A DNA stretch of 33,069 bases from Minisyncoccota bacterium (GTDB lineage: Bacteria > Patescibacteriota > Minisyncoccia > Phycocordibacterales > UBA1006), in assembly GCA_028697455.1 (NCBI GenBank), contig JAQVEZ010000001.1, positions 131,902-164,970 of the forward strand, written 5' to 3'. Each line of letters opens with the position of its first letter. Positions within the stretch are counted from its first letter, which is position 1. Below the pieces are notes generated by a model. That model ran no database searches. It was not told the DNA's origin and saw only the letters and a list, made by a program, of their open reading frames with translations. The position numbers and the translations under genes are program-made. Below, piece by piece: positions 18,177-25,743 of this stretch.

Positions 18177-18267
18177 ATATGTACAAGCCAGTGGCAAAAG
18201 AAAATCGCCACTAAAAACTACAAGTTATTATCCTTGAATATTTCAAGAATACCATCTGATAATTTTC

Positions 18268-18395
18268 AGGGACGATGTATCCGAGCAGCCGTGTTGCTGT
18301 AGGATAAAACCGCGGTGCCACCCTTGTTCTCAATAATGATTGAGCTCTTTTCTTTTTTGTTATACCTCCACGGCGCTACTCGCTTCATAGGTATA
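18268..18395 (-). promoter_or_regulatory. T-box leader (tRNA-Ser-responsive) upstream of serS, with very short Stem I
   Basis: Minus strand AAGGGUGGCACCGCG (18325-18311) and matching CGUCCCU (18274-18268); preceded by CUCAAU-CAUU-AUUGAG hairpin and UAUACCU...AGGUAUA hairpin containing GAAGCGAGUAGCG. Confidence 0.85.
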
Positions 18396-18400
18396 TATTT

Positions 18401-18428
18401 ATTGTAAGTAAGAAATATTTATTTTCAA
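18401..18428 (-). promoter_or_regulatory. Putative promoter of the T-box/serS transcript
   Basis: TTGAAA (18428-18423)-N16-TACAAT (18406-18401). Confidence 0.55.
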
Positions 18429-24368: not shown

Positions 24369-25481
24369 TTATATTCGAAACTCAATAACGTCTCCATCTT
24401 TAACAACATAATCCTTTCCTTCCGTGCGAAGAAGCCCTTTGGCCCGTGCTTCTCCAAAAGAACCAGCATCAAGAAGCTCTTGCCATCCAATAATATCTGC
24501 ACGGATGAATTTGGTTAAGAAATCACTATGAATGGCAGAACCCGCAACAGGAGCGGTTGAATCACGTTTAATGGTCCATGCGCGTGTTTCTTTTTCTCCG
24601 GTTGTAAAATAAGTAATCAATCCCAAAAGTTTATATGCCTTTTGAATAAGCTCATCAATCCCATCATCATGAGAATCGAGCTCTGCTGTAAAAAGCTCTT
24701 TTTCATCTTTTGAAAATTCAGAAAGATCTTCCTGTGTTTTTGCATCAATAACAACATACTCTGCTGAATATTTTTCAATTTCCTCAAGAATTTTTTGAAA
24801 AGTACTTGGGTCTGATTCATCAAGATTTTTTCCTCCTGACTTTTTATTGAGCCCATACATAACTGGTTTCATAGTAAGAAGATGGAGGGTCTTGATAACC
24901 ACGAGCTCTTCTTCACTGAGCTTGAAGTATTGGGCAAGTTTTTCAGACGAAAGCCAATCATACATTTTTGCACAAACAGCATCTTCAAAAATAGCTTGTT
25001 TGTCTCCTCTTTTTACGTCACGAAGAATTTTTTCTCGCCTATTTTGTACCGTCTCCATATCGGCGAGAATAAGCTCCATATTAATAACTTTGATATCTCG
25101 TAAAGGATCGATGGAACCATACAAGTGCGTTTGTTCTGTTCCCGATTCATCTTGAATATCAAAAATACGCACCATATGCAAGATAGCATCAACCTCACGA
25201 ATATGGGCCAAAAATTTATTTCCAAGCCCTTCCCCCTTTGATGCCCCTTCAACGAGACCCGCAATATCAACAAACTCAACAACCGCAGGAATGGTTTTTT
25301 GTGTATGAGAAAAAAGAGAAAGTTTTTCTAATCTTTCGTCTGGGACAGAAACAATCCCCACAGAAGGATCGATTGTACAAAAAGGATAATTTTCTGCAGG
25401 AACACATTTTCGAGTTAATGCATTAAAAAGAGTTGATTTCCCGACGTTGGGGAGCCCAACAATTCCAATAGAGAGTGACAT
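24369..25481 (-). CDS. ychF: Obg-family ATPase/GTPase YchF
   Basis: [76 protein letters not shown]. Confidence 0.97.
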
Positions 25482-25482
25482 A

Positions 25483-25743
25483 TTATTTTTTCTTCTGCTG
25501 CCACGCCATCATCATTTTTTGGAGTTCTGCTTGGTTTTCTCGAATGGTTTGCATCATTGCATGCTGTTCATTAAGTCCGTTTTTTTTCTTTTGTGACACC
25601 TGTTCCTCTATTTTCTTGAAAAACTCAGGATTTTCGCTAACAAGAGCCATAACCATTTCTTGTTGTTCTTTTGGCAGTCCTTTCATTTTTGACTGAACAA
25701 GTTTCTTTATAAAAAAATCTTTAATACCCATAATAATAAACAA
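25483..25743 (-). CDS. Small charged, likely helical hypothetical protein
   Basis: 86 aa ORF directly upstream of ychF on the same strand; no recognised domain. Confidence 0.55.
   Translation of the reverse strand: MFIIMGIKDFFIKKLVQSKMKGLPKEQQEMVMALVSENPEFFKKIEEQVSQKKKNGLNEQHAMMQTIRENQAELQKMMMAWQQKKK

Follow-up and report, generated by a model that had tools for sequence, protein, structure and literature searches.

An ultrashort T-box without Stem II precedes serS in a Minisyncoccota bacterium and very probably attenuates its transcription

Can a T-box riboswitch whose Stem I is a single hairpin of about 35 nucleotides (nt) sense tRNA-Ser and regulate transcription in a genome of the candidate phyla radiation (CPR)? 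This question is raised by the leader of serS, the seryl-tRNA synthetase gene, in a stretch of 33,069 nt (33 kb, hereafter the window) of contig JAQVEZ010000001.1 from a Minisyncoccota bacterium of the Patescibacteria; all coordinates given for it are window positions on the minus strand. The T-box hallmark, the Stem III, the Stem I hairpin and the promoter named in an original prediction are all present on that strand (Table 1). The leader carries a genuine T-box: its elements, their conservation and covariation, its mutually exclusive folds and a matching tRNA gene and discriminator are all observed here, and the T-box is very probably a serine-specific one that attenuates the transcription of serS. 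Our analysis adds to the original prediction a kink-turn (K-turn) in Stem I, the lack of a Stem II, a terminator overlapping the antiterminator, and AGC rather than AGU as the specifier. The most unusual feature of the element is the lack of Stem II combined with a transcription terminator.

The element, which lies 92 nt upstream of serS, is detected by two covariance models. When the window is scanned with all Rfam models (cmscan), the T-box family RF00230 matches at 18397-18265 (-) with 37.9 bits (E 3.9e-5 over the window), the alignment covering the K-turn flanks, Stem III, the T-box and the closing strand, and leaving most of the Stem I/Stem II region of the model idle. A model derived from 12 relatives only (4 Ser and 8 Asp leaders, the window being left out) scores the window leader at 86.1 bits (E 3.1e-18), which is its sole match in the 33 kb. 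The leader fold beats 199/200 dinucleotide shuffles (z -3.3). The comparison extends to five serS leaders: that of the window and those of loci L009, L014 and L021, all located directly before serS, and that of L029, located on a short contig. This comparison is the strongest support: all five leaders retain the same hairpin, specifier, promoter position and bulge, which, together with the gene identified downstream and the tRNA-Ser(GCU) of the genome, uphold the proposal of a serine-specific T-box before serS.

Stem I consists of a C-helix UAUACC/GGUAUA, a K-turn, a helix of three base pairs (bp) and an 8-nt apical loop AGUAGCGC. Its 23-nt core follows the pattern AUGA-A-NNN-RGUAGCRY-NNN-GGAG in 5/5 serS leaders, the 3-bp helix being GCG/CGU in the window, ACC/GGU in three relatives and ACA/UGU in another. 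In the alignment of the 12 relatives, 98.1% of the Stem I cells are paired, as against 40-52% when the partner strand is slid by 1-3 columns; four pairs have changed on both sides and the covariation score is reached by 0/500 shuffles, these shuffle counts not being probabilities because the 12 rows are mutually related. The K-turn of the window comprises a 3-nt bulge UAU and tandem GA/GA, and the columns G12 A13 and G30 A31 G32 are invariant in the 12 relatives and identical in the window. These GA and GAG columns, like the C-G closing pair and the 3-nt bulge, are consistent with a predicted kink-turn. Folds and covariation support the view that Stem I is a single hairpin of ~35 nt devoid of a distal platform.

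Which codon does this loop display? Two serine codons, AGC and AGU, had been put forward as candidates. The loop consensus is RGU-AGC-RY, with AGC at loop positions 4-6; this triplet is invariant in the five serS leaders and aligned to the GAC of the aspS leaders, and across the aligned serS and aspS leaders a U precedes the specifier in nearly all cases and a purine follows it. The ambiguity is settled by the invariance of AGC across the compared leaders, so that the predicted specifier is AGC and not AGU, which reads GGU in L014. The genome possesses tRNA-Ser genes with the anticodons GCU, GGA and UGA, all three with a discriminator G, as anticipated from the bulge UGGC. The specifier AGC pairs with the anticodon GCU and the bulge UGGC with GCCA. 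The thrS leader provides an internal control: it shows ACC and UGGA, and the tRNA-Thr(GGU) of the genome has a discriminator U.

Between Stem I and Stem III, the serS leaders hold only A-rich linkers of ~13-16 nt (16 nt in the window), and by reading of the sequences no Stem II hairpin, S-turn or pseudoknot is found in any of the five; the S-turn and the pseudoknot are plainly visible in other T-boxes of the Patescibacteria, for example before ileS in L006, L290 and L301. Stem III stands in its expected RRRxG-Stem III-AA context, AAGAG-CUCAAU...AUUGAG-AA, which is kept in four relatives. Downstream of it, the bulge of the UGGNACC type lies between the strands A1 and A2, A2 opening with a G-U pair as in other T-boxes, and the minimum free energy (MFE) structure of the isolated antiterminator segment is the canonical form with the 7-nt bulge (-16.6 kcal/mol). 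The terminator reuses the 3' strand of the antiterminator, the shared strand being AUCGUCCCU, and in folding the two structures are mutually exclusive, as in an attenuator: a growing transcript of 130-140 nt folds into Stem I, Stem III and the antiterminator, and the full-length leader folds into the terminator, with an energy 5.5 kcal/mol better than that of the best antiterminator-enforced fold. The terminator hairpin also folds in L009 and L021 (-21.1 and -25.4 kcal/mol), its landmarks are readable in L014, and the sequence of L029 ends before this region. Since the full leader folds a terminator on the antiterminator 3' strand, followed by a U-run, these models indicate that the output is most likely transcriptional attenuation. 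As a separate observation, the A2 part of this genome holds an extra hairpin at 18277-18308 (-), missing from 3/4 relatives; we rejected the idea that this insertion hides the Stem I loop in the OFF state, the complementarity being equalled by 62/1000 shuffles.

The best site of the promoter scan is the one adjoining Stem I. In 5/5 serS leaders, 10-13 nt separate the end of a TAnnnT -10 from the K-turn AUGA, with a TTG-containing -35 at 16 nt, and most aspS leaders present TACAAT or TATAAT at the equivalent place. Compared pair by pair, the serS leaders have an identity of 0.85 at the K-turn but of only 0.36-0.37 immediately before Stem I. Because the promoter abuts the hairpin and conservation ends there, the transcript most likely begins at the Stem I base, in agreement with the earlier claim that the promoter leaves no room for a longer Stem I. 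A terminator-like hairpin with a U-run is found at 18457-18436 (-), directly upstream of the serS promoter, and the neighbouring gene beyond it is divergent.

Table 1. Features of the serS leader and gene in window coordinates
Feature	Position	Strand	Basis
Sigma-70-like promoter TTGAAA-N16-TACAAT	18401..18428	(-)	pattern scan, 10/12 matches; predicted start ~18396-18392
-35 TTGAAA; -10 TACAAT	18428-18423; 18406-18401	(-)	16-nt spacer
Stem I, whole	18361..18395	(-)	folds; both helices covary over 12 relatives
Predicted specifier AGC (Ser)	18375..18377	(-)	invariant in five serS leaders; matches anticodon GCU; U before, purine after
A-rich single-stranded linker ACAAAAAAGAAAAGAG replacing Stem II	18345..18360	(-)	sequence; 3' end = RRRxG purine string
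Stem III CUCAAU-CAUU-AUUGAG, then AA	18329..18344 (strands 18344-18339, 18334-18329)	(-)	fold; context in five serS leaders
Antiterminator: A1 AGGG/CCCU, bulge, A2 opening with G-U pair	18268..18324	(-)	RF00230 match; MFE fold
7-nt T-box bulge UGGCACC	18320-18314	(-)	between A1 and A2
Antiterminator 3' strand CGUCCCU	18274-18268	(-)	
Intrinsic terminator hairpin AUCGUCCCUGAAAA.../...UUUUUAGUGGCGAU	18204..18276	(-)	fold, -27.0 kcal/mol
Terminator U-tract UUUCUUUU	18196..18203	(-)	sequence
serS, seryl-tRNA synthetase, 422 aa	16908..18176 (ATG 18176-18174)	(-)	NCBIfam TIGR00414, 445 bits, E 2e-133

In the mechanism that we propose, RNA polymerase would start at the base of Stem I and the first 35 nt would fold into the K-turned hairpin, whose 8-nt loop would display AGC. 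The anticodon of an uncharged tRNA-Ser(GCU) would pair with this codon and its GCCA end with the bulge UGGC, ~55 nt downstream of the specifier; this docking would stabilise the antiterminator and serS would be transcribed. A charged tRNA would be unable to dock in the bulge, which would let the terminator form and stop transcription before serS. The binding of the tRNA, the discrimination of its charging state and the effect on expression are what we infer. In a leader with neither Stem II nor the interdigitated T-loop motif (IDTM), the contacts would be the codon-anticodon and NCCA pairings, plus whatever the A-rich linker adds.

Several points weigh against a serine T-box working in this manner. 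The 37.9 bits obtained with RF00230 lie below the gathering score of the family, 93. The score is low because the model is built for a long Stem I plus a Stem II, ~110 of its positions being unused; the gathering cut-off is a curation threshold and no functional part, and the functional parts all fit. The folding energies disregard the K-turn, the tRNA and the kinetics, and a simple terminator scan missed the terminator, presumably through the internal loops interrupting the hairpin. The truncated Stem I of Nocardia farcinica ileS barely binds tRNA without Stem II (PMC7583486), and binding is therefore not a given here. Moreover, six genomes of the same genus have serS but no T-box there, the regulation being therefore dispensable, and the Ser version is supported by just four other leaders, among which that of L029 lies on a contig too short to include the gene.

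Could the switch act on translation, hiding or freeing a ribosome-binding site as do the actinobacterial ultrashort ileS T-boxes? In published work, an ultrashort Stem I is typical of T-boxes that act on translation (PMC7583486, PMC10482949) and, when the leader is folded with its 3' part, the T-box strand can base-pair with UGCCACUGGCUUGU, immediately ahead of the start codon, a pairing that we rejected as a conserved feature, as it is not found in the compared relatives. We consider this reading very unlikely, given the hairpin and U-tract built on the antiterminator strand, the folding of this hairpin in two further serS leaders, and the fact that no Shine-Dalgarno-like sequence is found within ~40 nt of the serS ATG. 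The patchy presence within the genus, together with the aspS T-boxes with Stem II found in sister lineages of the order (L287, L281), would also suit a decaying relic that has lost Stem II and the distal Stem I under relaxed selection. Such a relic has a slim chance of being the explanation: the remaining parts (specifier, K-turn, bulge, A1 and A2 strands) are strictly conserved, the pairing of Stem I is kept through compensatory change, the terminator and the promoter are also kept, and folds that exclude each other would not be expected to persist in a relic across genomes that differ by ~25% in their SerS proteins.

The slimness of the chance is even greater for a conventional long Stem I with a start further upstream, the 5' part of which would have been overlooked. 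The start position is a predicted one and a weaker second promoter-like site exists 13 bp farther upstream, but a promoter-like site adjoins the hairpin in each of the five serS leaders and in almost every aspS leader, conservation ends at the hairpin base, the hairpin has a closing C-helix and K-turn of its own at the point from which a long Stem I would start, and several aspS leaders present a U-rich, terminator-like stretch directly upstream. The least probable of these alternatives is a sensor that would read a tRNA other than tRNA-Ser(GCU), via the AGU also present in the loop or via a shifted loop frame: AGU is not preserved in L014, whereas AGC and the following purine are invariant and aligned with the GAC of aspS, specifiers are known to follow a rule of C at the third position (PMC7583486), which AGC obeys, and the bulge, the discriminator and the downstream gene are all consistent with serine.

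How does a serine T-box of this build relate to the known ones? Four T-box classes are defined by Stem I and Stem II, and tRNA binding is augmented by the IDTM, Stem II or both (PMC10482949); transcriptional T-boxes generally need a long Stem I for fast capture (PMC7583486). The serS leader shares with class III (N. farcinica and Mycobacterium tuberculosis ileS) an ultrashort Stem I without IDTM, the basal K-turn, an apical-loop specifier followed by a purine and the discriminator domain. However, class III needs a Stem II with S-turn and IIA/B pseudoknot, which the serS leader does not possess (PMC10482949, PMC7583486). Class III is also mostly, although not strictly, translational, whereas the serS leader, judged by sequence and folding, ends in a predicted terminator and has no Shine-Dalgarno sequence; and the studied class III cases are Ile-specific with a loop of 5-6 nt, instead of Ser-specific with a loop of 8 nt (PMC10482949, PMC7583486). 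With class II (Bacillus subtilis glyQS) it has in common the transcriptional output and a single-stranded linker in the place of Stem II, but class II combines a long Stem I bearing the IDTM with glycine, where the serS leader has its 35-nt Stem I and an apical Ser specifier. With class I (B. subtilis tyrS) it shares antitermination before an aminoacyl-tRNA synthetase gene, the bulge and the antiterminator; the long Stem I, the IDTM and the Stem II of this class are replaced by a 35-nt hairpin abutted by the promoter and a 16-nt linker. Other T-boxes found in the Patescibacteria (aspS GAC, glyS GGC, thrS ACC, ileS AUC) also have an ultrashort Stem I, an apical specifier and a terminator. Those before aspS in the genus, L190, L206 and the glyS elements L242, L273 and L289 are likewise devoid of Stem II, while the ileS and several aspS elements keep a Stem II with S-turn and pseudoknot, and the Stem I of thrS is built differently. 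None of the four published classes fully accommodates the serS element, which is a variant of the T-box, not a new kind. No paper on T-boxes in Patescibacteria, CPR or candidate phyla was found among openly licensed papers; TBDB, in which a truncated-Stem I model was applied to some sequences, may hold relatives, and some of the elements are perhaps already catalogued.

The 531-kb genome (96% complete) contains three T-boxes, located before serS, before thrS, and before an Mrr-like gene followed by aspS, the last with specifier GAC and bulge UGGC. RF00230 matches are found in 16/20 genomes of the family. The serS T-box was found in the genus only, and we rejected it as an order-wide trait, none being present in 28 serS leaders from the rest of the order. 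A T-box in a CPR-like genome had been thought to deserve attention; it is present indeed, but it is no lone oddity, as RF00230 matches occur in 128/380 Patescibacteria genomes drawn evenly over the phylum (13 above the gathering score). Among the loci read, most combine an ultrashort Stem I, a Stem II and a terminator, and in a few (L276, L278, L300) Stem I is long and has a distal region. Ultrashort T-boxes without Stem II are met elsewhere before aspS (L190, L206, L315) and glyS (L242, L250, L273, L289, L323). In the Stem II-less loops, U precedes the specifier in 26/29, A or G follows it in 29/29, and 28/29 specifiers contain two or three G/C, whereas 15/19 specifiers of T-boxes with Stem II contain only one; this list of 29 and 19 ultrashort and thrS loops was read by eye from an uneven sample including close relatives, for L317 the better reading is UGG, its flanks being unchanged, and the doubtful glyS leader L275 is in neither group. 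This trend is in line with a published proposal according to which weak codons require Stem II (PMC7583486). In a loose-pattern scan of GTDB genome contigs, most of the matches listed were chance or the 3' half of leaders with a long Stem I; after filtering, those listed included three leaders of the genus, two aspS leaders and several glyS/glyQ leaders.

Other T-boxes met alongside are worth recording. In L254 to L259, one or two cargo genes stand between a GAC T-box and aspS. The cargo in this genome is an Mrr restriction endonuclease (Pfam Mrr_cat, Mrr_N; L254 5179-6069 and 3742-5163, G000:C1 ~86-92 kb), and in relatives small membrane proteins or a serine hydrolase; Mrr was rejected as an unusual T-box target, since aspS follows directly and the locus is an aspS operon carrying a cargo gene. 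The thrS T-boxes (L003, L010, L016, L023, L026, L027, L279 and L337, the last from a distant family of the phylum) have another Stem I, with a conserved GAUUGUU, a hairpin loop CUACCAA (ACC) and no K-turn signature, and mostly a closing AGAUU/AAUCU helix and a second hairpin. The ileS T-boxes of Patescibacteria (L006, L007, L011, L290, L301, L304, L308) show the class III architecture and terminator-like ends, so that this class apparently need not be translational. The Asn codon AAC serves as specifier before aspS-like genes in L315, L281, L320 and L322, as would be expected if these AspRS also charge tRNA-Asn. In leaders of Clostridia/Acidaminococcaceae (L171, L199, L212, L215, L220, L232), some clearly before glyQ/glyS, the promoter abuts an ultrashort GGC Stem I; transcriptional ultrashort T-boxes therefore exist outside Patescibacteria, at least for Gly. 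Two tandem T-boxes precede a gene in L294/L327 (G309:C3 ~25376-25700), the upstream one with a GGC loop, and L269 (G017:C2 14994-16241) is a second SerRS-like gene of a relative, 35% identical and without T-box.

In conclusion, we think it likely, with less assurance than for the serine T-box itself, that a fifth T-box architecture exists across the Patescibacteria: transcriptional, with an ultrashort Stem I, without IDTM or Stem II and not restricted to glycine. It would rely on only two tRNA contacts, the specifier and the NCCA-bulge, and mostly on specifiers with two or three G-C pairs, for which the lateral support of Stem II would be dispensable. If so, the specifier would sit in a hairpin resembling a tRNA anticodon loop, with U before it and A or G after it in most cases. 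A natural transcriptional T-box lacking both IDTM and Stem II would mark the minimum of the machinery and, at ~130 nt from Stem I through the antiterminator, would offer a compact tool. It would also open the way to regulation in the Patescibacteria, in which few circuits are known and to whose host-dependent life amino-acid sensing would be well fitted.
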